Source of the DNA: Pseudomonadota bacterium
GTDB lineage: Bacteria; Pseudomonadota; Alphaproteobacteria; Sphingomonadales; SMXR01
Reading direction: 5' to 3'
DNA: 59,222 nucleotides
Assembly: GCA_022566215.1 (NCBI GenBank)
Contig: JADFJJ010000007.1
Coordinates: forward strand, 1-59,222
A model generated the notes under the pieces. The model saw only the letters and a list, made by a program, of their open reading frames with translations. It did no database searches and was not told the DNA's origin. Below, piece after piece: positions 788 to 50,448 of the stretch (the first letter of the stretch is position 1; every line of letters begins with the position of its first letter). The translations under genes were made by a program, and so were the position numbers.

Positions 788-1711
788 ATGAAACCTTTGC
801 GGCTGATATTCATGGGTACTCCGGAGTTTGCGGTTCCCTCGCTAAAGGCCCTGGTTGAAAGTCCGCACCAGGTTGTCACGGCTTACACCCAGCCGCCGCG
901 AAAAAGCGGGCGCGGCATGAAGGAGAGCAAAAGCCCGGTTCACCGGTTCGCTGAAGATCATGGCATTCCGGTCCTGACCCCTGAAAACTTCAAGGATAAA
1001 AAGGATCTTGAAACCTTTAAGGCCTTGGGCGCGGAGGTAGCCGTGGTGGCGGCTTACGGGCTGATCCTGCCAGAGGCGATACTGACCGCGCCCAGCAAGG
1101 GATGCCTGAACATTCATGCCTCGCTGCTGCCGAAATTCAGGGGCGCGGCGCCGATCCAGCGGGCGATTGAGGCCGGTGAGACGGTCAGTGGCAACACCAT
1201 CATGAAAATTGAAAAGGGCCTGGACGCCGGGGCGATCATTATCCAGGAACAATTTACCCTCAAGCCCGATGAAACCGCCGGCTCCCTGCACGACCGCCTA
1301 TCTGACCAGGCGGCCGGCATGATTGTCCCGGCTCTGGAAGGGTATGTCGCGGGAAAGCTGGTTCCAAAACCGCAGGATGAAACCAATACCACCTATGCCC
1401 CCAAGGTCAAAAAAAGCGAAAGCCGCATCAACTGGAACGCCCCGGCCATCGAGGTCGACCGCAAGGTCCGCGCCTTTTGCCCGTACCCGGGGGCCTGGTT
1501 CCAGCATAGAGGCAAGCGCATTCGTATTCTGAAAGGCCACGTGGTGAAAGCAAGCGGCGCCCCGGGGGAAGTCCTGGACAAGTCCCTGACGGTTGCCTGC
1601 AAGACCGGGGCATACCGGATTGAGCGGGTCCAGCGCGCCGGCAAAAAGCCGATGACGGCGGCTGAGTTTTTGCGCGGCCAGCCGATCGCCCCGGGTGAGA
1701 TTGTTGATTAG
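788..1711 (+). CDS. fmt: Methionyl-tRNA formyltransferase
   Basis: Transfers a formyl group from 10-formyltetrahydrofolate to Met-tRNA(fMet), producing the initiator tRNA. The N-terminal Rossmann-like domain starts [19 protein letters not shown]. The folate-site signature [18 protein letters not shown] lies near residues 108-126 and contains the conserved SLLP and RGAAP. The C-terminal tRNA-binding OB-like domain follows from about residue 205. At 307 residues the length is typical. A GGGGAGG Shine-Dalgarno precedes the ATG. It is the middle gene of def-fmt-truA, and its stop is 4 bp before the truA start chosen here. Confidence 0.97.
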
Positions 1712-1715
1712 TCCC

Positions 1716-2477
1716 ATGGCCCAGCGCTTCAAGATCACGATAGAATACGATGGCGGCGGATATGTCGGCTGGCAGGCCCAGGACAACGGGCCATCGGTTC
1801 AGGAAACCATTGAACAAGCGATCCATGCCTTTTCCGGCGAGCGCGTCCGCCTGACCACCGCCGGCCGGACCGATGCCGGGGTTCATGCGCTGGGCCAGGT
1901 GGCCCATTTTGACCTGAAGAAAAAAATCACACCCCACCAGGTGATGGCCGCGGTCAACGCCCACCTGAAGGAAGCCAAAGTGGCGGTCATCAAGGCTGAG
2001 GCTGTCGATGAAAACTTCAGCGCGCGCTTTTCAGCGGCCCGACGCCATTATCTTTACCGCATCCTGAACCGCAAGGCGCCGCCGGTGCTGGACCACGGGA
2101 AGGTCTGGCACGTGCCGCAAAAGCTCGATGCGGAGAAAATGCATGCCGCCGCCCAAGCGTTGGTGGGGAAACATGACTTTACAACCTTCCGTTCGATCAG
2201 GTGCCAGGCCAAATCACCGGTCAAGACGCTGGACCGGCTGGACGTTGAACGGTTGGGCGAGGAAATTTTATTCCGGGTTTCGGCGCGTTCATTTTTGCAT
2301 CACCAGGTGCGCTCGATGGTCGGCACCCTGAAGCTGGTGGGCCTGGGCAAATGGACCGCAGATAATGTCACTGAGGCGCTTGAGGCCCGGGACCGGACGG
2401 CGGTCGGTTTCAATGCCCCGCCGCACGGGCTGTATCTCATCAGAGTGGAATACCGGGAAGGCCAAACGCCTGCATAA
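1716..2477 (+). CDS. truA: tRNA pseudouridine(38-40) synthase TruA
   Basis: Isomerises uridines 38-40 in the anticodon stem-loop of many tRNAs. The catalytic aspartate is in GRTDAGVHA near residue 53, and the N-terminus [17 protein letters not shown] is the usual family opening. The track ORF starts earlier, inside fmt. I moved the start to the ATG at 1716, which gives 253 residues and matches the normal N-terminus. The 3' end overlaps the convergent membrane-protein gene by 38 bp. Sequence between them is too short for a terminator of its own. Confidence 0.95.
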
Positions 2478-3051
2478 ACAGCGCCATGACAAAAAATACC
2501 AGTAAAACATCAAACAGCACGAACAATATGCCGTGAAAAACCGACGCGCCGAGCGCTTTGCGGGTGATGTAGAACTTGTAGCTTAAGCCCAGCCCGAGAC
2601 TGATCCACCAGACCATAACCGCGGCCGTCCCGGCTATGACGGAGAACGAGCCAAGGACAAAATAGGGCAGCATGATAATCATGAAAAATATCCGGCCCCA
2701 GTTATAAAGCGGCATAAAGACCAGGTAATTGTGGCGCGGGCCGATGATCGACCAGGCATAAAAAATCGCATAGGCAAACATTATCCAGGCGATCGCGTAT
2801 CCGGCAAAAAAGCCAAAAATAAGCAAAAAACCACTCAAATCAAAATCCGGCCCCCGGAACTGCAGCCATTGGATCAGAACATAAAGGGGGGCGGCGAAGA
2901 TCAGGGCTGAGAAAGACCGCAAAACGTTTCTGCCCGAGACCTCCATAAACTTCAGCGCCGTGGAATCGCCTATCAAAAAACGAAACGCGACAAACAGGGA
3001 GAGGACGATATGTTCGGGTAAGGTTTGGCTATGGGTTTTTTTCGGGGACAA
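2440..3051 (-). CDS. Hypothetical polytopic membrane protein
   Basis: I do not recognise a family with certainty. With a TTG start at 3051 the product has 203 residues and about five to six hydrophobic segments, starting with [14 protein letters not shown] and including aromatic-rich runs such as [16 protein letters not shown] and [20 protein letters not shown]. The pattern resembles small YIP1-like inner-membrane proteins, but that is only a resemblance. The track ORF starts inside dapD; the first internal ATG would remove the first membrane segment, so the TTG just after dapD is preferred. It follows dapD by 16 bp and is probably co-transcribed with it. In relatives this position between truA and dapD often holds dapE, which is absent here. 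Confidence 0.55.
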
Positions 3052-3067
3052 GGGACTGGGCCGCCTT

Positions 3068-3859
3068 TCACGGGCGGAGCAAATCGTTGATGGAGGTTTT
3101 GGCCCGGGTTCCGGCATCCACGGATTTGACAATCACCGCCGCGTAGGTGTTTTTTTCCGGCAGTATACCCGGCACCACCACTGAATATGCCGGGATTCGC
3201 CCGGTTGTGACCCGGCCGCTTTTCCGGTCCAGGATCGGGGTGGATTTGCCAAGATAAACCCCCATGGCAAGCACCGCTCCCTCTTCGATTATGACCCCTT
3301 CGGCCACTTCCGAACGGGCGCCGATAAAACAGTTGTCTTCGATAATGACCGGGCTTGCCTGGACCGGCTCAAGCACCCCGCCGATCCCGGCCCCGCCCGA
3401 GATATGGCAGTTTTTTCCCACCTGCGCGCAGCTTCCCACCGTCGCCCAGGTATCCACCATGGTGCCGTCCCCGACATAGGCGCCAATATTGACATATGAA
3501 GGCATCAGCACCACACCCTGGCCGAGGTACGCCCCAAAACGGACCAGTGAGCCAGGAACAGCACGTATGCCGGCCTTTTTGAAGTCGTCTTCGCCCCAGC
3601 CGGAGAATTTCATCGGCGCCTTGTCGTACCATGGACCTTCCTTGACCAGGCGGTTTTCCGACAGCTGAAAATAAAGAAGCACCGCCTTTTTGGCCCATTG
3701 GTTAACTTGCCAGACGCCGTCCTTTTTCTCAGCTGCCCTGAGCCGCCCCTGATCCATCAAGGCAATGACTTCCTCTACGGAAGAGAGAACCGGGTCACCT
3801 GTACTCAGCGAGCTGCGTTTCTCCCAGGCGGTCTCGATGATATTCTTTAGTTTATCCAT
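3068..3859 (-). CDS. dapD: 2,3,4,5-tetrahydropyridine-2,6-dicarboxylate N-succinyltransferase
   Basis: Succinylates tetrahydrodipicolinate using succinyl-CoA in the succinylase branch of lysine and meso-diaminopimelate synthesis, so it feeds both protein and peptidoglycan. The 263-residue protein has an N-terminal helical domain ([15 protein letters not shown]) and a left-handed beta-helix of hexapeptide repeats from about residue 95 to 230, for example [20 protein letters not shown] and the glycine-rich [13 protein letters not shown]. It is slightly shorter than the usual 270-285. The gene follows the HAD nucleotidase by only 4 bp, so both are likely on one transcript. Confidence 0.95.
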
Positions 3860-3863
3860 ATCC

Positions 3864-4559
3864 TCACGTTTGAAGCGTTTCGCTGAGCCAGCCTACCAGA
3901 TGGTCGGTTTCATAATCAATGTGCGCGGCGTCATAGCCCATCGCTCCCCATTCATAGCGGGTCTTGACCCACACCGTGGTCATGCCAAGGGCCGCCGCCG
4001 GGGCCAGGTTGCGCGCCATGTCTTCAATCATCACGGCATTTTTCGGGTCAATTCCGAAGTGGTCGATGAAGTTTTGATAGGAGACCTCATTGGGCTTTGG
4101 AATATGGCCGGCCGCGGTGATATCAAATATTCCGTCGAACTGGTCTTCAATGCCGATTTTTTCCAGCACCCGGATGGCATAGCGGGCCTCACCATTGGTA
4201 AAGATAAATTTTCTCCCCCGAATTGCGCTCAAAGCCCGGCCCAGTTCCTGATCTTGTTTCAGCGGGGACAGGTCAATGTCGTGGACAAAATGCATAAAAT
4301 CTTCCGGGTTGACCCCGTGTACTTCGATCAGGCCGCGCAGGGTAGTGCCATAGCGGATAAAATAATCCTTTTGTATTTTATAGGCCTGGTCTCCGTCGAC
4401 CCCAAGCAAGTTCGTAATATAGGCCTTCATTTTGATATCGATGTGGGCAAACAGGTTGCAATGTTCAGGATAAAGGGTGTTATCCAGATCAAATATCCAG
4501 GCGGTCGAAGAGCTATTCGACACCTTTTTTCTGCTTTTTTTCCGGATAATCTGGTCCAT
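3864..4559 (-). CDS. HAD-family pyrimidine 5'-nucleotidase
   Basis: Haloacid-dehalogenase-superfamily phosphatase of the pyrimidine 5'-nucleotidase (SDT1/PhnX-like) group, probably acting on nucleoside monophosphates. Visible motifs are IFDLDNTLY (motif I, nucleophile Asp near residue 24), FTNGE (motif II), a Lys in the KPN segment (motif III) and MIEDMARNL (motif IV). The track ORF begins inside the end of engB; the ATG at 4559 gives MDQIIRKK and 231 residues with a G-rich ribosome site upstream. The gene commonly neighbours dapD in alphaproteobacteria. The exact substrate cannot be told from sequence. Confidence 0.82.
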
Positions 4560-4576
4560 CGCGGGTGGTTTTCCCC

Positions 4577-5216
4577 CTAACCCTTGCACGCGTTGGCTAT
4601 AGCATCGCGCAAGTCATCAATGCCGATATTCTTGACCGCGCTGGTGGCCAGGATATCGGGGTGTACAATAACATAAGGTTTCAGGTCGTTGCGCAGTTTT
4701 TCCATAGCCGGTTCACGCTCTTCCACTTTCAGTTTGTCGACTTTGGTCGCCACTACCAGGGTGGAAACCGCGGCCTTGCAAAAGTTCAAGGATTTCCCGG
4801 TCGCTTTTCATCAGCCCGCGGCGGGCGTCGATTAAAAGAAACAGCCGCCTCAGGGGCGCCCTTCCCCTCATGTAATCCTTGATCAGGCCGGTCCAGCGCC
4901 TGACCTGGCCCTTGGCCGCCCGGGCATAGCCATAGCCGGGCATATCAACCAGATAACACTCGCCGCCCAGACTATCTCCGGTTAGATGAAAATAGTTCAG
5001 CATCCGGGTGCGTCCCGGGGTATTGGAGGTCTTGGCCATTTTTTTGCGCTCCACCAGGGCGTTCAGCAGGGTCGATTTCCCGACGTTGGAGCGCCCGGCG
5101 AAGGCCACTTCCGGAAAACCGGCCGCGGGCAGATCGTTGGCCGAAACCGCACTGGTCAAAAAGGTGCACTCCACGGCCCAGGGGGGGCCAGCCGCGCTGC
5201 CTTTTTCCTTAGCCAT
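4577..5216 (-). pseudogene. engB: engB/yihA ribosome-biogenesis GTPase, split by a frameshift
   Basis: EngB is a small GTPase needed for assembly of the large ribosomal subunit and is essential in most bacteria tested. The upstream frame (5216 to about 4780) holds the P-loop GRSNVGKST near residues 41-49, switch [10 protein letters not shown] and the segment SDREILELL. It then runs out of frame to a stop at 4713. The remainder continues in another frame as [16 protein letters not shown] (G4 motif TKVD) through the ATSAV region (G5) and ends at 4577. Inserting two bases between 4778 and 4779 restores CTT-TTG-(GA)C-AAG, that is LLDKAAVS, which is what the family normally has. This is either a sequencing or assembly error or a real disruption. 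The gene sits between yidC (8-bp overlap) and the HAD nucleotidase. Confidence 0.88.
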
Positions 5217-6960
5217 CTTTTATTGAGACACCTTCGCGCCTCATGATGATCCACTGCTGGGTGATCGACAACAGGTTGTTCCAGGTCCAGTAAATCACCA
5301 GGGCGACCGGGAACGGCGCCAGGATGAAGGTGAACAAAATTGGCATGAACATGAATATCTTGGCCTGGATCGGGTCTGGAGATTGCGGGTTCAGCTTCAT
5401 TTGCAGCCACATGGTCAGGCCCATCAGGATTGGCCAGATGCCGATCGCCAGGAAGGAAATCCAGCCCGGATAGGACCAGTCGATCAGGCCGAAGCCGGTG
5501 ATCAATGTCGCCGGATCCGGGGCCGACAGATCGTGGATCCAGCCAAAGAACGGCTGATGGCGGGAATCAATCGTGACAAACAACGTCTTGTAAAGGGCGA
5601 AAAACACCGGAATCTGCAGCAAAATCGGCAAGCACCCGGCCGCCGGATTGACTTTTTCCTTCTTGTAAAGCGCCATCGTTTCCTGTTGCTGGCGCGTTTT
5701 GTCGTCGGCATAACGTTCCTTGATCTGCTTCATTTTGGGCTGCAGCTTTTTCATTTTGCTCATGGCCCGGTAGGACTTGTTGGCCAGCGGGAAAAAGAAA
5801 ATCTTGATGATGATGGTCAAAATCAGGATCGCGACCCCGTAATTGCCGGTCGCCTTGAAGAAAAAATCCAGGGTGAAATAAATCGGCTGGGTCAGGAAAC
5901 TGAACCAGCCCCAATCGATCGCCCAGTCAAATTTCGGAATGTTATAGGCTTCGCTATAAGCATCGATCAGGTCCACTTCCTTGGCGCCGGCGAAAAAGTG
6001 GGAAGTGTATTCTGATCTCCCGCCGATCGCTACAACTTCACCGCCTTCGACCAAAAATCTGGCCCGGTAAACATCCCGGCCGCGCATTTTGCTGTAGGTG
6101 TAATTGCCGGTAAAGGATTTGCCTTGATCGGGAATCAGGGCGGTCAGCCAGTTTTTGCCGGTAAATCCCAGCCAGCCATTGTTGCTTCCGGCATATTCCA
6201 GCGGGCCATCATCGGCCAAATCATCATAGTCATAATCGTCTTCCACCTGGTCGTTAAATGCACCAACCGGGCCTTCGTGAAGAATAAAAAAGCCCAGCGT
6301 GTCGGGGGTATCGATGCGCCAGATGTCGCCGGTGGGGGCGATGTTAATCCTAGCGCCTGAGTTGTTCTCAACCACCTGGCGGATGGTGAAAAGAAAATTT
6401 TCATCGACCGAGAAAAACTGGCGGAAGGTAACACCCTGGCTGTTTTCCCAGTAAAGCTCGACCGGGTTATCGGTGGTCAATGTCCCGCCCCGGGCATTCC
6501 AGACGGTATTTTCACCGGGGAGTTCGACGCTGGCATTGGCCCGCCAGCCAAACCGCGCAAAATAAGCATTATTTTCCGGCGCCGGCCTTAAAAGGTTAAT
6601 ATTTAACGCCCCTTCGCCAACCCGGTCGTAATAATCCTTCAACACCAGGTTATCCAGGGTTGCGCCACGGGTCGAGATGCTGCCACGAACCCGGGCAGCG
6701 TCAATTATCACCGGGACCGAGACGGCCGGCGGGGGGGCCGCTTCCGGTGGGGCTTCACCCAATATCTCCCGCGACAGCGGATCAGGGTCGGTAATGGTCT
6801 CACCGCCCAGATCAAGGGGTTGATCAACCTCGGCTTCCTGGTCCAGCTGTTCCTGCTCACGGGCCAGCTCATCCATGGGACCCAAGTAAAATGTCTGGTA
6901 GAGAAACAGAACCAGCATCGAGAGGACCACCGCCGACAGCAAATTTTTCATATCACCCAT
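5209..6960 (-). CDS. yidC: Membrane protein insertase YidC
   Basis: Inserts proteins into the inner membrane, alone or with SecYEG. The 583-residue protein has the Gram-negative layout: an N-terminal transmembrane anchor ([16 protein letters not shown]), a large periplasmic beta domain from about residue 60 to 350, then five C-terminal membrane helices. The conserved cytoplasmic loop [16 protein letters not shown] and the segment [19 protein letters not shown] identify the family. The start at 6960 or the ATG three codons in (6951) are both possible. It overlaps engB by 8 bp and follows yidD by 3 bp, forming rpmH-rnpA-yidD-yidC-engB. Confidence 0.97.
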
Positions 6961-6963
6961 AAT

Positions 6964-7236
6964 TCAAACCTTATTCTTCGCTTTCTTTTTGCGCTGTTCA
7001 GAATGCCCCTCAGAGGCCTCCGGCACGGGATCAAAACCGGAGCCGCCAAAGGGGTGGCACCGGCCAATGCGCTTTAATGCCAGCCACGAGCCTTTAAGTC
7101 CACCATGAAGTTTAATGGCCTCCGCCGCGTACTGGCTGCAGGTCGGCTGGAAGCGGCAGGTGGGCGGAAAAAAGGGTGAAACCAGCCGCTGGTAGCCGCT
7201 GATCATAAGCTGGAAAAATTTGGCCAATGGCGACAT
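6964..7236 (-). CDS. yidD: Membrane protein insertion efficiency factor YidD
   Basis: A small amphipathic protein that assists YidC-dependent insertion at the inner membrane. The 90-residue product carries the family signature with cysteines: [15 protein letters not shown] and the following [15 protein letters not shown]. The basic tail [12 protein letters not shown] is typical in being variable. It lies 3 bp from rnpA upstream and 3 bp from yidC downstream, in the conserved order. Confidence 0.95.
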
Positions 7237-7239
7237 GTC

Positions 7240-7608
7240 TCAGACCTTTTTTTCAAGACGCTTATGTAAGACTTCGAGCGCGCTTTTCAAATCCTGAACC
7301 AACAATTCATAGGGCCTCTTAAGGGCAGCTTTTCGCCCGATCACCACATAATGAAATCGATCCCGGCCCAATTCCGGGAAAACCTCCCCGATCACCTTCC
7401 TTAGGCGGCGCTTGATGCGGTTGCGTTCAACCGCGCCGCCGCACCGCTTGGTCACGGTCAGGCCGGCGTAAATCCCTTTTTCCGCATCCTCGGCCGGCGC
7501 CTTAATCTGGACCACCAGACCGGGCATGGGCTTTTTGACGCCAGCGGCCGCCACCGACAAAAACTGCCGGCGGGTCTTCAGGGTGTATATGTCAGGTTTT
7601 TTCCTCAT
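7240..7608 (-). CDS. rnpA: Ribonuclease P protein component
   Basis: The basic protein subunit of RNase P, which binds the catalytic RNA and the tRNA 5' leader. The 122-residue sequence starts KPDIYTLKTRRQFLSVAAAG and contains the signature AVERNRIKRRLRKVIGEV near residues 55-72, the arginine-rich RNR motif that contacts the RNA. It lies 94 bp downstream of rpmH. A terminator-like hairpin in that gap (separate entry) may set its expression below that of L34. Confidence 0.95.
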   Translation of the reverse strand: MRKKPDIYTLKTRRQFLSVAAAGVKKPMPGLVVQIKAPAEDAEKGIYAGLTVTKRCGGAVERNRIKRRLRKVIGEVFPELGRDRFHYVVIGRKAALKRPYELLVQDLKSALEVLHKRLEKKV

Positions 7609-7636
7609 GATCTGTATCTATACCGTCAAGAAGCAT

Positions 7637-7665
7637 AAAAAAACCGGCCCCTTGGTGGGAGCCGG
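7637..7665 (-). terminator. Intrinsic-terminator-like hairpin between rpmH and rnpA
   Basis: On the minus strand a stem CCGG-(CT bulge)-CCC pairs with GGG-CCGG around a six-base loop (7644-7665) and is followed at once by seven T residues (7643-7637). It lies 38 bp after the rpmH stop and about 28 bp before the rnpA start, so it would end or attenuate the rpmH transcript before rnpA. The stem has a 2-nt bulge, so partial read-through is likely. Confidence 0.55.
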
Positions 7666-7702
7666 CGCTAATCCTCAAAAAGGGTTGATTGCCCCCTTAA
7701 AA

Positions 7703-7837
7703 TTAAGCAGAAAGGCGCTTGCGGCCCTTGGCCCGTCTCGCATTCAGGACCCGGCGGCCGCCGACAGTGGCCATCCGGGCGCGGAAACCGTGGCGGCGTT
7801 TTCTGACCAGGTTGCTGGGCTGAAATGTTCTTTTCAT
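7703..7837 (-). CDS. rpmH: 50S ribosomal protein L34 (missed by the ORF track)
   Basis: This 44-codon gene is too short for the supplied track, but reads cleanly on the minus strand. The product starts [18 protein letters not shown] and continues with [20 protein letters not shown], the very basic and highly conserved L34 sequence of normal length. L34 is a structural protein of the large ribosomal subunit. An AGAGGTGA Shine-Dalgarno lies 5' of the ATG and a textbook promoter lies about 60 bp further upstream. It heads the rpmH-rnpA-yidD-yidC cluster. Confidence 0.97.
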
Positions 7838-7897
7838 AGTCACCTCTGCTCCGGGTTCAACGTCTTGGGCCTGACCCGCTTCTCAATTGCGAGGGGG

Positions 7898-7926
7898 TGT
7901 ATAGCGCTCTCCCCAGGACAAGTCAA
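7898..7926 (-). promoter_or_regulatory. Sigma-70-type promoter of rpmH
   Basis: Reading the minus strand, TTGACT (7926-7921) is separated by exactly 17 bp from TATACA (7903-7898). Transcription would begin near 7891, giving a leader of roughly 54 nt before rpmH. Both hexamers are near consensus. Confidence 0.75.
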
Positions 7927-8063
7927 TGGCCGTAAAGGTGAATTTCCTCAATTTGTTTTCCGGCATCAGGGCCAAAAATTCAGGGCCTTTTACGCTCCTT
8001 TTGCCCTTTGGAACAAATTGGGATAAAGCTAGAAGCCGGAAGCTGGGAATGAGGGGCTTTGGC

Positions 8064-8933
8064 ATGACATTAAACAAGCCAGGATTAACGCGAGCGGCCG
8101 GCCGGAGGTTTCTGGCCGCCCTGATTTTTCTTCTGTTCCCTGTTTCCCTGTTGCAGGCAGCGGAAAAACCGAACCTTATGGAGCGTTGGCTGGTCAATGA
8201 TTCCCTTTCCGGGCGGGAGGTCGACCACAGCCCCTGGCAAAACCTTCTGGACTCCTACCTGGTGGCCCGGGATGAGGGGGAAAGCGCTTTTAACTATGCC
8301 GCCGTCACAAGCCAGGACCAGGAGGTTTTGTCCCAGTACATCATCATGCTGGGGCGGACCGATGTTGACCGCCTGAACCGGGATGAACAAATGGCGTTCT
8401 GGATCAACGCCTACAATGCCCTGGTGGTCAGTATCGTTCTTGAGGACTATCCGGTGCGCAGCATCAATGACATCGGCGGGTGGTTTTTCTCGCCCGGACC
8501 GTGGCAGGAAAAAAGGTTCCGGGTGTACCTGATAAACCTGAGCCTGAACGACATCCACCACCGCATTCTGCGCCCGATCTGGAGGGATTTGCGGATCCAT
8601 TATGTCTTGAGCTGCGGGGCGCGGGGCTGCCCGGCGCTGGCGGCAAAGCCTTTTACCGGGAAATCCATTGAGGAAGACCTGGCGGCGGCCGAGACCGCTT
8701 TCATCAACTTTGGTCCGGCGATCCGCCAGATCAGGGGGACCGGGGTTACGCTGTCACGCATATACGACTGGTATGGGCGCGATTTCGGCGAACAGGAAGA
8801 GGACATCCTGGCCCACATCAAAAACCGGGCCCGGGGGAATTTGGCGGTTCAGCTGGCGCCGGTCGGAAAAATTTCCAGCTACGGATTTGACTGGGATCTG
8901 AACGATGCCGCGGGTCAAACCCCGGGCGACTGA
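8064..8933 (+). CDS. Secreted DUF547-domain protein
   Basis: A protein of unknown biochemical function with a DUF547 domain. From the chosen ATG at 8064 (AGGGG Shine-Dalgarno 7 nt upstream) the 289-residue product starts with a basic n-region and a hydrophobic core, FLAALIFLLFPVSLLQAAE, which looks like a cleavable Sec signal, so it is probably periplasmic. DUF547 hallmarks are FWINAYNALVV and the cysteine pair in YVLSCGARGCPAL, followed by ISRIYDWYGRDFG-like sequence (here LSRIYDWYGRDFG). The track start at 7926 lies inside the rpmH promoter and has no ribosome site, so it is rejected. It is a single gene between rpmH (divergent) and the histidine kinase. Confidence 0.85.
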   Translation: MTLNKPGLTRAAGRRFLAALIFLLFPVSLLQAAEKPNLMERWLVNDSLSGREVDHSPWQNLLDSYLVARDEGESAFNYAAVTSQDQEVLSQYIIMLGRTDVDRLNRDEQMAFWINAYNALVVSIVLEDYPVRSINDIGGWFFSPGPWQEKRFRVYLINLSLNDIHHRILRPIWRDLRIHYVLSCGARGCPALAAKPFTGKSIEEDLAAAETAFINFGPAIRQIRGTGVTLSRIYDWYGRDFGEQEEDILAHIKNRARGNLAVQLAPVGKISSYGFDWDLNDAAGQTPGD

Positions 8934-9000
8934 ACACCTTTCCCGGGTAAAACCCTGAAAATTATTTAATTTTAGGCAAAATCCCTTTACAAACCTATTC

Positions 9001-10407
9001 ATGCAAGAAAAACGTCCAACATTTTTCAATAGCCTGTCATCACAATTGCTGGTGCTGATCATTTTGTTTGTGATGATGATCGAGGTTTTGATTTACGTTC
9101 CCTCGCTGGCCGAGTTCAGAAAAGATTATCTCGACCGCCGGCTGGTGATGGCGCAGGTGGCCGCGCTGTCGCTTGAGGAAGTCCCCGGCCAGGCGGTCAG
9201 CTCCATGCTTGAGGAGGAATTGCTGAGCGCCGCGGAAATCCAGGCAGTGATTGTGATTCGGGATGATTCGCGTCAGCTCATCCTGCGCGGCGATATGCCC
9301 TCAAGGCTTGAAGCGGTCTATGACCTCCGCAACCCCACCTCCTGGGAACTGGTGGTGGATGCTTTCACGGTGCTTGGAAGGGGCGGGACCGGCAGCATCC
9401 AGGTCGAGGGAAAACCCCTTAATACCCGCCACCAGTCGGTCCTGATTGTTTTGAGGGAAGCGCCGCTTTTTGAGGCCATGGTCGCCTTTTCAAAATCGAT
9501 CCTGATCACCTCACTGGTGATCTCCCTGGCTACGGCGGGACTGGTTTTCCTGAGCATCATGATTTTCCTGGTCCGGCCGACCAAAAGGATCACCGATAAC
9601 CTGACCCGGTTTGCCGCTCAGCCGGAATTGGAAAGGAACACCCTGAAGGTCAGCGGGCGGCGAAATGAGATTGGCCTGCTGGAGGATCAAATCTCCCACA
9701 TGCAGCGTGAAATTCAAAAAGCCTTGCAACAGAAAAAACACCTGACCAGCCTGGGGCTGGCGGTCAGCAAGATAAATCACGATCTGAGAAACATCCTTGC
9801 CACCGCCCAGCTCTCCATTGACCGGCTCACCTCGGGCAAAGCCAAGGAAAACCAGGAACAGGTCATGGCGCGTCTTTTGCGTTCGGTGGACCGGGCGGTG
9901 CGTCTTGGCGAGCGCACCCTGAAATACGGCAAAGCGGAAGAACCGCCGCCTGATAAAAAAACGTTTTTACTGGCCGGCCTGGTCGCGGAGGTGAGGGAAT
10001 CCCTCCGGGACGGCGCCCGGGGCGGCCCCAGGTGGGTGGTCAAGATTCCCAAAACCCTGAAGGTCAATGCCGACCGCGAACAATTGTTCCGGGTGCTGTT
10101 GAACCTTTGCGGTAACGCAATCGAGGCGATGGAGGGGGCGGGGACCCTGACCATAATCGGTAAGGCGGATGGCAAAGAGCACCTGATCAGGGTCAAGGAT
10201 ACCGGGCCGGGTATTCCAGAGCGGCTTCAGGAAAGCCTGTTTATTCCTTTCGCCGGGAGCACCAAGGGAAGCGGCTACGGCCTCGGCCTGGCGATCGCCC
10301 AGGAATTGGTCAAAGCGCACAATGGAGAAATTCTTTTGGAAAAATCCGGCCCAACGGGAAGCGTGTTTTGTATTTGCCTGCCCGCCAAACAACCGCGCAA
10401 AAATTAA
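9001..10407 (+). CDS. Orphan sensor histidine kinase
   Basis: An inner-membrane sensor kinase of 468 residues. Order of parts: transmembrane segment near 13-33 (LLVLIILFVMMIEVLIYV), periplasmic sensor region to about 160, second membrane segment near 165-190, HAMP-like linker with a coiled coil, then the kinase core. The phosphoacceptor region reads SKINHDLRNILATAQL (H then DLRN, a variant H-box). The ATPase has N-box FRVLLNLCGNAIEAM, G1 DTGPGIPE and G2 GSGYGLGLAIA. No response regulator is next to it. There is no recognisable Shine-Dalgarno before the ATG at 9001; the upstream DNA is AT-rich with a 16-bp interrupted palindrome (8958-8973). The signal sensed is unknown. Confidence 0.9.
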   Translation: MQEKRPTFFNSLSSQLLVLIILFVMMIEVLIYVPSLAEFRKDYLDRRLVMAQVAALSLEEVPGQAVSSMLEEELLSAAEIQAVIVIRDDSRQLILRGDMPSRLEAVYDLRNPTSWELVVDAFTVLGRGGTGSIQVEGKPLNTRHQSVLIVLREAPLFEAMVAFSKSILITSLVISLATAGLVFLSIMIFLVRPTKRITDNLTRFAAQPELERNTLKVSGRRNEIGLLEDQISHMQREIQKALQQKKHLTSLGLAVSKINHDLRNILATAQLSIDRLTSGKAKENQEQVMARLLRSVDRAVRLGERTLKYGKAEEPPPDKKTFLLAGLVAEVRESLRDGARGGPRWVVKIPKTLKVNADREQLFRVLLNLCGNAIEAMEGAGTLTIIGKADGKEHLIRVKDTGPGIPERLQESLFIPFAGSTKGSGYGLGLAIAQELVKAHNGEILLEKSGPTGSVFCICLPAKQPRKN

Positions 10408-11089: not shown

Positions 11090-11166
11090 GCGCCCGTAGC
11101 TCAGCTGGATAGAGCACCAGACTACGAATCTGGGGGTCGGGGGTTCGAATCCCTTCGGGCGCGCCA
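11090..11166 (+). tRNA. tRNA-Arg (anticodon ACG)
   Basis: A complete 77-nt cloverleaf. Acceptor GCGCCCG pairs with CGGGCGC; D-arm GCTC/GAGC; anticodon stem CCAGA/TCTGG around loop CTACGAA, giving anticodon ACG; variable loop GGGTC; T-arm with the TTCGAAT loop; discriminator G and an encoded CCA. A34 would be deaminated to inosine, so this tRNA reads CGU, CGC and CGA. The two track ORFs on the opposite strand here are translations of the tRNA complement. Confidence 0.97.
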
Positions 11167-11192
11167 CCCTTCGCCCTGCGGGCTTCGGGTGG
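11164..11192. repeat. Palindromic element abutting the tRNA 3' end
   Basis: A two-tier inverted repeat: CCACCC-TTC-GCCC-TGC-GGGC-TTC-GGGTGG. Both stems are perfect, with a symmetrical TTC/TTC internal loop. Its left end overlaps the CCA of tRNA-Arg. No T-run follows, so it is not a standard intrinsic terminator. Confidence 0.7.
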
Positions 11193-11224
11193 CTGACGCC
11201 AGTTAGCCAATCGGAAACGCAAAT

Positions 11225-11263
11225 GGGGCGAAGGCGTGTCGCCCGTAGCCTTGGCGAAGGGGG
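11225..11263. repeat. Imperfect palindromic repeat of the 'FAKATAG' type
   Basis: GGCGAAGGC and GCCTTGGCGAAG flank a short spacer (GTGTCGCCCGTA). Read on the minus strand the element encodes SPFAKATGD, close to the FAKATAG string that interspersed palindromic repeats yield in spurious translations of many bacterial genomes. I infer a member of that widespread class of short repeats. Confidence 0.5.
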
Positions 11264-11300
11264 ACTGCCGCAAGCCCTAAGGAGCCTTGAATTGCAAGCA

Positions 11301-11350
11301 GGAGTGTCCACCATAGCTTTAGCGACGGCGGAAGCTTTATGCGAAGGGGA
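11301..11350. repeat. Second short palindromic element
   Basis: Contains ATAGCTT and AAGCTTTAT arms around TAGCGACGGCGG, giving a bulged hairpin, and ends in the same GCGAAGGGG string that occurs in the preceding element. Together with the two upstream palindromes it makes a cluster between tRNA-Arg and the antiporter gene. Confidence 0.5.
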
Positions 11351-31499: not shown

Positions 31500-31503
31500 A
31501 AAG

Positions 31504-39371: not shown

Positions 39372-41039
39372 TTATGCCTTGTCGGCATCCGCCTCTTTTT
39401 CCTCAGCCGGAGCTTCCTCTTCCGCTGCTCCTTCTTCTGCTGCTCCTTCTGCCGCTTCTTCCGCTGCTTGTTCCGCCGCTTTCTGCTCCTTGGCGCTGGC
39501 CACCGCGGCCAGATCCTCTTTGGTGATCCACCCGGCCTTGAGGCGGGCGTCCAAAACCATGTCACCGGCCTCGGCCTCGGTCAGGTCGCTGTCCTTAAAG
39601 GGAGCATCAGCGCCGAAGATCAACTCGTCAGCGGCAAATCCCGCAAAGTCTTCGAGGGTTTTGGTGCCTGCTTCACCCAGAGTGACCAGCATTTCAGGGG
39701 TCAGGCCCTTTACCGCCGCCAGGTCGTCGGCGACGCCGAGTTTCTTGCGCTTCTTGTCCGCTTCTTTTTTCCGGCTCTCGAGGGCATCGACAGCACGCTG
39801 CTGCAACTCGGACACCAGCCCTTCATCAAATCCTTCAATGGCGACCAGCTCTTCGGCCTCGACAAACGCCACTTCCTCCAGTTCGGAAAAGCCCTCCACC
39901 ACCAGAAGCTGGGCCAGGGTTTCATCCACATCCAGGGTTTTGGCGAACATTTTGCTGCGGGTCTTGAACTCTTCCTGGCGCCGTTCAGATTCTTCCGCTT
40001 CGGTCAGGATGTCGATCACCCAGCCGGTCAGTTTCGAAGCCAGCCTGACGTTCTGCCCGCGGCGTCCAATGGCCAGCGAAAGCTGGTCGTCCGGGACCAC
40101 CACTTCAATACGGCGTTCGTCTTCATCCAGAACCACCTTGACCACCTGGGCCGGGGCCAGGCCGTTTACAATCAGAGCGGCGGGATCCTGGGTAAAGGCA
40201 ATAATGTCAATTTTCTCGCCCTGGAGCTCGCTCACCACCGCCTGAACGCGGCTGCCGCGCATGCCGACACAGGCACCAACCGGGTCGATCCCGCTATCGT
40301 TGGAAATGACCGCGATCTTGGCCCGGCTTCCGGGATCACGGGCAACCGCCTTGATCTCGATCACGCCGTCATAAATCTCCGGAACTTCCTGGGCGAACAG
40401 CTGCGCCATGAACTCGGGCACGGTCCGCGAAAGAAAAATCTGCGGTCCCCGGTTTTCCTTCCGGACATCCATGATATAGGCGCGGATGCGCTCGTTGTTG
40501 CGCATGTGTTCCCTCGGGATCACATGGTCGCGCGGGATAATCGCCTCGGCCCGGCCCAGATCGACAATGACGTTGCCGTATTCAATCCGCTTGACCACAC
40601 CGGTGATAATTTCACCAACCCGGTCCTTGAACTCTTCGTACTGGCGCTCGCGCTCGGCGCTCCGCACCTTTTGCACAATCACCTGCTTGGCGGTCTGGGC
40701 GGAAATGCGGCTGTAATCAATGGGCGGCAGGGGCTCGGCGATAAATTCTCCCACCTCAGCCTCCGGCTTGTCCTTGCGCACTTCGTCGAGCGAGATTTCG
40801 GTGCTGACGTTTTCGACCTCTTTCACAACCTCACGGATGCGGAACAGCCGCAAGTCGCCATTTTCGCGATCGATCTGGGCGCGGATGTTGTTTTCCATGC
40901 CGTAACGGGCCTTGGCCGCCTTTTGAATGGCTTCCTCCATGGCCTCGATCACGATTTCCTTGTCGATTGCCTTTTCCCTGGCGACCGCTTCCGCGATCTG
41001 CAGGATTTCCAGTTTGTTAGCTCCAACTGCCAGCGCCAT
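39372..41039 (-). CDS. nusA: Transcription termination/antitermination protein NusA
   Basis: RNA polymerase-associated factor for pausing, termination and antitermination. From the ATG at 41039 (MALAVGANKLEILQIAEAVA) it has 555 residues: N-terminal polymerase-binding domain, S1 domain near 135-200 (GEIITGVVKRIEYGNVIVDLG), two KH domains (with the GMRGSRVQAVVSEL and GRRGQNVRLASKL loops), and C-terminal repeat domains. The last 40 or so residues are an Ala/Glu-only tail (EEAAEGAAEEGAAEEEAP) produced by imperfect GCTGCTCCTTCTTC-type DNA repeats. It follows rimP by 38 bp. Confidence 0.96.
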   Translation of the reverse strand: MALAVGANKLEILQIAEAVAREKAIDKEIVIEAMEEAIQKAAKARYGMENNIRAQIDRENGDLRLFRIREVVKEVENVSTEISLDEVRKDKPEAEVGEFIAEPLPPIDYSRISAQTAKQVIVQKVRSAERERQYEEFKDRVGEIITGVVKRIEYGNVIVDLGRAEAIIPRDHVIPREHMRNNERIRAYIMDVRKENRGPQIFLSRTVPEFMAQLFAQEVPEIYDGVIEIKAVARDPGSRAKIAVISNDSGIDPVGACVGMRGSRVQAVVSELQGEKIDIIAFTQDPAALIVNGLAPAQVVKVVLDEDERRIEVVVPDDQLSLAIGRRGQNVRLASKLTGWVIDILTEAEESERRQEEFKTRSKMFAKTLDVDETLAQLLVVEGFSELEEVAFVEAEELVAIEGFDEGLVSELQQRAVDALESRKKEADKKRKKLGVADDLAAVKGLTPEMLVTLGEAGTKTLEDFAGFAADELIFGADAPFKDSDLTEAEAGDMVLDARLKAGWITKEDLAAVASAKEQKAAEQAAEEAAEGAAEEGAAEEEAPAEEKEADADKA

Positions 41040-41077
41040 GATCGTACTCCTTAGGTAAGTTTGCGACACTGTTAATG

Positions 41078-48518: not shown

Positions 48519-49898
48519 TTATGCCGCGCTTTGCGCCCTGGCGGGAAGCGTCAGCTTTCCCTTTAAACTATTGGGTCCGGCGGCCAAAATTTCAACTTCT
48601 TTTAGAGACCCGAGGCAGTTTTTTGCATCTTCGGTAACGACATGCACCGCCTGCATATAGGGGTTGCGGCCAACAATCTGGCCCTTGTGTTTGCCGTGAC
48701 GCTCGAACAGGACTGTCATCTTTTTGCCGACACTGGCCTGGTTAAAAGCCTGCTTTTGGGCGTTTAAAATCTGCTGCAGGGCGGCCAGCCGGTCCGCTTT
48801 CACGGCCTCCGGGATCTGCCCCGGGGCATTGGCCGCAGGGGTTCCGGGCCGCGGGCTGTATTTGAAGGAATAGGCCTGGGCGTAGTTGATCTCCCTTACC
48901 AGCTCGAGGGTTTTTTCAAAGTCTTCTTCCCGCTCCCCCGGAAAGCCAACGATAAAGTCGCTGGAAAGGGCAATATCGGGCCGGCTTTTTCTGATTTTTT
49001 CCACCAGTTTCAGGTAATCACCCGCGCTGTGGCCCCGGTTCATGGTCTTCAGGATCCGATCCGAGCCGGATTGCACCGGCAGATGCAAGTGCGGCATCAG
49101 GGCCTCAATTTCACCGTGGGCGGCGATCAGGTCGTCTTCCATGTCGCGCGGATGCGAGGTGGTATAGCGGATGCGCGCCAATCCCTTTATTCCCGCCAGC
49201 CGCCTGATCAGGCCGCCCAGGCCAAGCTCGTTGCGGTCTTTGTCCAGGCCATGAAAGGCATTGACGTTTTGTCCGAGCAGCGTGATCTCGCGCGCTCCCC
49301 TGGCCGCCAGCCCCCGGGCCTCGAGCGCGATTTCCTCAATGGTGCGCGAAAACTCGCCCCCCCGGGTGTAAGGCACCACGCAAAAGGTGCAAAACTTGTC
49401 ACACCCTTCCTGAATGGTCAGGAACGCCGAAGGGCCTGGTGCGGGCGCCTTTTTCGCCAGATGGTTAAATTTTTCCTCGACCGGAAATTCGGTATCGACG
49501 ATGGCGGCCGGCCGGTTGGATTTTTTTGCCTTTGCGACGCTTTCCAGCAATTCCGGCAGACGGTGATAGGTCTGGGGGCCGAACACCAGTTCGACCACCG
49601 GCGCGCGGCGGATAATCTCCTCCCCTTCGGCCTGGGCGACACATCCGGCGACAGCGATGGTCATGTCGCGCCCGGCGGCTTTTCCCTTTTCCTTCAGGGC
49701 GCGGAGGCGGCCAATGTCGGAATATACCTTTTCGGAGGCCTTTTCCCGGATATGGCAGGTGTTCAGAATGACCAGATCGGCCTCGTCCGGGGTCTCCGCC
49801 AGGCGATAGCCAATCTCCGCCAGCAAACCGGCCATACGGCTGGAATCATAAACATTCATCTGGCAGCCGTAGCTTTTGATATGGACCTTCCGTGTCAT
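48519..49898 (-). CDS. miaB: tRNA-2-methylthio-N6-dimethylallyladenosine synthase
   Basis: Radical-SAM enzyme that methylthiolates i6A37 of tRNAs reading UNN codons. The ATG at 49898 gives 459 residues. The N-terminal UPF0004 domain has three cluster cysteines ([21 protein letters not shown]); the radical-SAM cluster is CDKFCTFC in [19 protein letters not shown]; a C-terminal TRAM domain follows. The track ORF adds 84 upstream codons that have no such features. A 16-bp tandem duplication lies directly upstream of the start. Confidence 0.96.
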
Positions 49899-49902
49899 TG
49901 CA

Positions 49903-49934
49903 CCATTTTTCCAGGGCGCCATTTTTCCAGGGCG
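49903..49934. repeat. Tandem 16-bp direct repeat in the miaB leader
   Basis: CCATTTTTCCAGGGCG occurs twice in direct succession immediately before the miaB start codon. It places two GGAAAAATGG copies on the minus strand, so the ribosome-binding context of miaB is duplicated. Confidence 0.75.
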
Positions 49935-50001
49935 CCCCTTTCCAAGCCAAAGCCTCCTAGCTTTTTCCGATGCGGGTGGTTTACCCGGTTTTTCAGTATA
50001 T

Positions 50002-50448
50002 TCAAGATTTCTTTTTCCGCGACAGCAGGACCCCGTAAAGCTCCATGCGGTGATCAACCAGCTTAAAACCCATTTTTTTGGCGATTTCCTTCTGGAGCTT
50101 TTCAATTTCATCACTTTGAAATTCAAGCACTTCACCGGAATCCACGTCAATCAGGTGGTCATGATGGTCCTCCGACAAGAGTTCGTACCTGGCGCGGCCG
50201 TCACGGAAATCGTGGCGTTCCAGGATACCGGCTTCCTCAAACAGGCGAACGGTCCGGTAAACGGTGGCGATGCTGATGCCGGGATCGATTGCGGTTGAGC
50301 GTTGGTAAACCTTCTCTACATCCGGATGATCGGTCGCCCCCGACAGAACCCGGGCAATGACACGGCGCTGGTCGGTCATGCGCATGCCCCTGTCGAGGCA
50401 AAGCTGCTCAATATCGCTAATGGCCACGCCCGGCTGGTGTTTATCCAT
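50002..50448 (-). CDS. fur: Fur-family transcriptional regulator
   Basis: Metal-dependent repressor. The 148-residue protein has an N-terminal winged helix ([30 protein letters not shown] and [19 protein letters not shown]) and a C-terminal dimer/metal domain with [24 protein letters not shown]. The second Cys pair of E. coli Fur is replaced here by D and S (HLIDVDSG), which is normal for alphaproteobacterial Fur/Mur, often manganese- or iron-responsive. The internal ATG at 50448 is used; the track start lies 21 codons upstream. It is transcribed toward miaB. Confidence 0.92.

Follow-up and report, generated by a model that had tools for sequence, protein, structure and literature searches.

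What does it mean that the gene for a ribosome-assembly GTPase, reported to be essential in B. subtilis, E. coli and other bacteria (PMC10654211), is broken in the middle of its GTPase core in an alphaproteobacterial genome? We addressed this question for engB (ysxC/yihA) in a stretch of 59,222 nucleotides (the window) from a 1.89-Mb draft genome of 100 contigs and 93% completeness. The gene is present in a single copy on the minus strand (5216-4577) and is split by a net deletion of 2 nt. Its reading frame starts at an ATG at 5216, remains EngB-like until about 4775, and continues from there out of register as far as a stop at 4713; the open reading frame containing it (4713-5216) overlaps a second minus-strand frame (4577-4789), where mechanical upstream extension of the 3' part reaches a TTG at 4789. 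An earlier note on this DNA had read the two overlapping frames as one EngB, and this proved correct, as their products match complementary ranges of the family profile TIGR03598 (YihA/YsxC, length 186; Table 1). The adjoining yidC, whose 3' end overlaps the start of engB, adds to the likeness to the EngB/YsxC/YihA family; the difference from that family is that the frame is broken here between the G3 and G4 motifs. The 5' part contains G1 (GRSNVGKS), the G2 region and G3 (DMPG), while G4 (TKVD) and G5 (TSAVK) are found in the shifted-frame 3' part, so that as assembled G1-G3 are parted from G4-G5 and no single polypeptide carries all five motifs. The 5' part alone passes the curated cut-off of the profile (124.45 bits), compared with a score of 206 bits for the gene of a congener.

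Table 1. Coordinates of the engB locus and its neighbours in the window
Feature	Position	Strand	Evidence
engB 5' part, in frame	4779..5216	-	TIGR03598 164.8 bits, positions 2-129
engB 3' part, shifted frame	4577..4774	-	TIGR03598 29.4 bits, positions 127-185
2-nt deletion site	between 4774 and 4775	-	sole gap in 3639-nt, 95%-identical G001 alignment
yidC, intact upstream neighbour	5209..6960	-	PF02096, PF14849
pyrimidine 5'-nucleotidase (HAD), intact downstream neighbour	3864..4589	-	TIGR01993 205 bits, above cut-off
dapD, intact	3068..3859	-	TIGR00965 398 bits

The 2-nt deletion itself was confirmed by comparison with G001, a Proteobacteria metagenome-assembled genome of the same genus (contig JADFFP010000025.1), in which engB is intact with 213 codons. 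At the gap the window reads CTTTTGCAAG--GCCGCGG and G001 reads CTTTTGCAAGCAGCCGCGG, and the same two nucleotides are the only gap when the alignment is extended to 8.4 kb (window 821-9179). The corresponding codons are CTT TTG CAA GCA GCC GCG GTT (LLQAAAV) in G001 and CTT TTG CAG GAG GCC GCG GTC (LLQEAAV) in another relative, G002, while more distant relatives mostly have LLD or MLD, then E, D, A or V, and then AAV. The earlier note had inserted the missing bases between 4778 and 4779 and restored LLDKAAVS; both proposals were slightly off, as the alignment with G001 puts the gap a few bases away (Table 1), the nearest relatives have LLQAAAVS (G001) and LLQEAAVS (G002), and the K of KAAVS is an out-of-frame residue. 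Supposing a lost GAG codon like that of G002, one of the two units of an AGAG pair could have dropped out, although this is a guess. The deletion site is not within a homopolymer, the commonest location of sequencing indels.

A second engB, which the earlier note had offered as an explanation for a genuine loss, was not found, all other matches in the 93%-complete draft falling below the family cut-off, and it would be unusual for a copy to lie in the missing portion. There was also no other copy of the junction region and no alternative allele of it anywhere in the assembly. We rejected a misjoin through a repeat elsewhere in the genome, having found only chance-level matches of 14-36 nt, and an exact search of viral contigs with the junction flanks returned no match. 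The gene is intact in nearly all relatives: an engB match spans the site in a single frame in all of the 60 close relatives, 59 of which have no internal stop. At the level of the order, 245 of the 251 genomes, including complete ones, harbor engB above the family cut-off, and the six without a match are drafts of 67-93% completeness. Only two of these 251 genomes stand apart by a much poorer best E-value, the one studied here (3.9e-48) and G117, a 53%-complete draft (2.1e-41), the next weakest value being 2.6e-56. The one close relative with an internal stop is G008, a draft genome of the same order. Its engB (G008:C281:11000-12700) is interrupted by an in-frame TAA within the G3 motif (YVVD*PGYG); upstream of it, the end of yidC is open. 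This is another draft assembly with a broken engB, independent of the one studied here.

Long-read genomes that have little short-read coverage have been described as containing frequent uncorrected indels (PMC9426551), and the case at hand resembles the interrupted open reading frames of such metagenome-assembled genomes (the IDEEL idea) in that a conserved single-copy gene of a draft genome is broken by a non-triplet indel. It differs from those genomes in its rarity, with only one clear case in the roughly 118 kb that we aligned to G001, of which about 54 kb came from the window and 64 kb from four other 20-kb stretches. Over this length no gene with a recognised family other than engB has a clear frameshift; the other non-triplet indels are intergenic, lie near gene starts, form compensating groups or fall in frames with no recognised family, a few of the last being located at about 21510, 23142, 23889 and 53152 of the window. 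As the substitutions in engB do not cluster at third positions, the gene escaped the automatic coding filter, and the indels were therefore classified by eye. Furthermore, the 46.5 kb of coding sequence in the window contain 104 homopolymers of at least 6 nt, none of which shows a clear frameshift where aligned, and the C7 and A7 runs within engB are intact. The lesion is therefore an isolated one and no sign of indel-prone sequencing, which is not supported as a general cause, given where the remaining non-triplet indels fall. Such isolation weakens a blanket explanation by bad sequencing, and agrees with a consensus error confined to a spot where strains differ or coverage is thin.

We thus consider that the deletion is an isolated local consensus or assembly error, or else a minor strain haplotype with a sporadic lesion that was captured by the assembler, and assign to this reading a probability of roughly 0.78. 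It is favoured because the gap, isolated and 2 nt long, affects a gene that is otherwise intact, present in a single copy and retained very widely, in a genome that is still a draft. The working engB of the organism would then be ordinary and unbroken, with the 213 codons found in the congener, and no function would depend on the break. The earlier note, too, had held a sequencing or assembly error to be likeliest, and the isolation of the lesion, the fragmented and incomplete state of the draft, the retention of the gene in relatives, and the failure to find a second engB or a recoding signal all support it. That the assembly, and not the dominant cell population, is at fault is our inference, and the deletion may yet be a real strain variant. 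What follows is more probably only a caution, namely that surveys of the presence and absence of essential genes in draft genomes need checks for single indels.

The clean assembly around the deletion, the non-homopolymer site and the dN/dS of engB nevertheless leave room for a real and recent mutation. Between this genome and G001 this ratio is about 0.34 for the 5' part, about 0.41 for the 3' part and 0.365 overall, the highest among the 23 genes tested (the other values being 0.057-0.343); with only 25 substitutions behind it, this value does not suffice for a claim of relaxed selection on the gene. Together with the small genome (1.9 Mb), these features speak for a genuine recent loss of function that has become fixed in the lineage, with ribosome assembly bypassed through a suppressor or another assembly GTPase. 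We nonetheless regard such a loss as unlikely, given the reported essentiality of EngB in several bacteria (PMC10654211), the retention of the gene almost throughout the order, complete genomes included, and the lack of further decay within engB. As both parts look constrained and neither has a second lesion, signs of long-standing pseudogene decay are absent, and the substitution pattern does not support an old pseudogene. It is quite improbable that the deletion is both real and fixed, such that an alphaproteobacterium with a small genome builds its 50S subunit without full-length EngB or through an unrecognised +1 recoding. If the deletion were real, nature would have provided a bacterium that lacks, or recodes, an assembly GTPase found to be essential wherever this has been tested.

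A ribosome could cross the break only by shifting +1 (or -2) near 4775; because of the overlap between the frames at this place, one +1 shift would suffice for a protein short of one residue. A truly interrupted engB could accordingly give near-full-length EngB by ribosomal +1 frameshifting near 4775-4790, but we consider this very unlikely. None of the relatives uses such a shift, and the conserved interruption by which programmed frameshifting is judged is absent, the 60 close relatives being single-frame across the site. Inspection of the site showed neither a prfB-like CUU-UGA nor any obvious +1 slip codon, there is no stop among its 0-frame codons, and no conserved frameshift signal was found at engB. 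Likewise, no stable stimulatory RNA structure was found downstream of the site (z = -0.21, with 78 of 200 shuffles folding as well). Separate translation of the 3' part from the in-frame TTG at 4789 is possible on paper only, and two halves, parted between G3 and G4, that associate into a GTPase are hardly credible, since no relative has a split gene, the first product bears about 20 out-of-frame residues, no ribosome-binding site is apparent by inspection, and a 70-residue G4-G5 fragment alone would be unlikely to fold.

The comparison with G001 revealed several other differences in the window. One open frame (48519-50150) has in-frame length differences of 6 and 15 nt around 49911-49938, in a short repeat (CCATTTTTCCAGGGCG), and the gene at 39372-41069 has a 27-nt in-frame insertion at 39427, in a low-complexity stretch of the CTTCTGCTGCTCC type. 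The segment directly after a tRNA-Arg gene (11090-11350) is highly divergent from its counterpart in G001, and short stretches of it recur widely in the G001 genome, as if it were a dispersed repeat. At the intergenic position 31502, G001 has 22 extra bases, which include a second copy of GTCAGTCGCCG.
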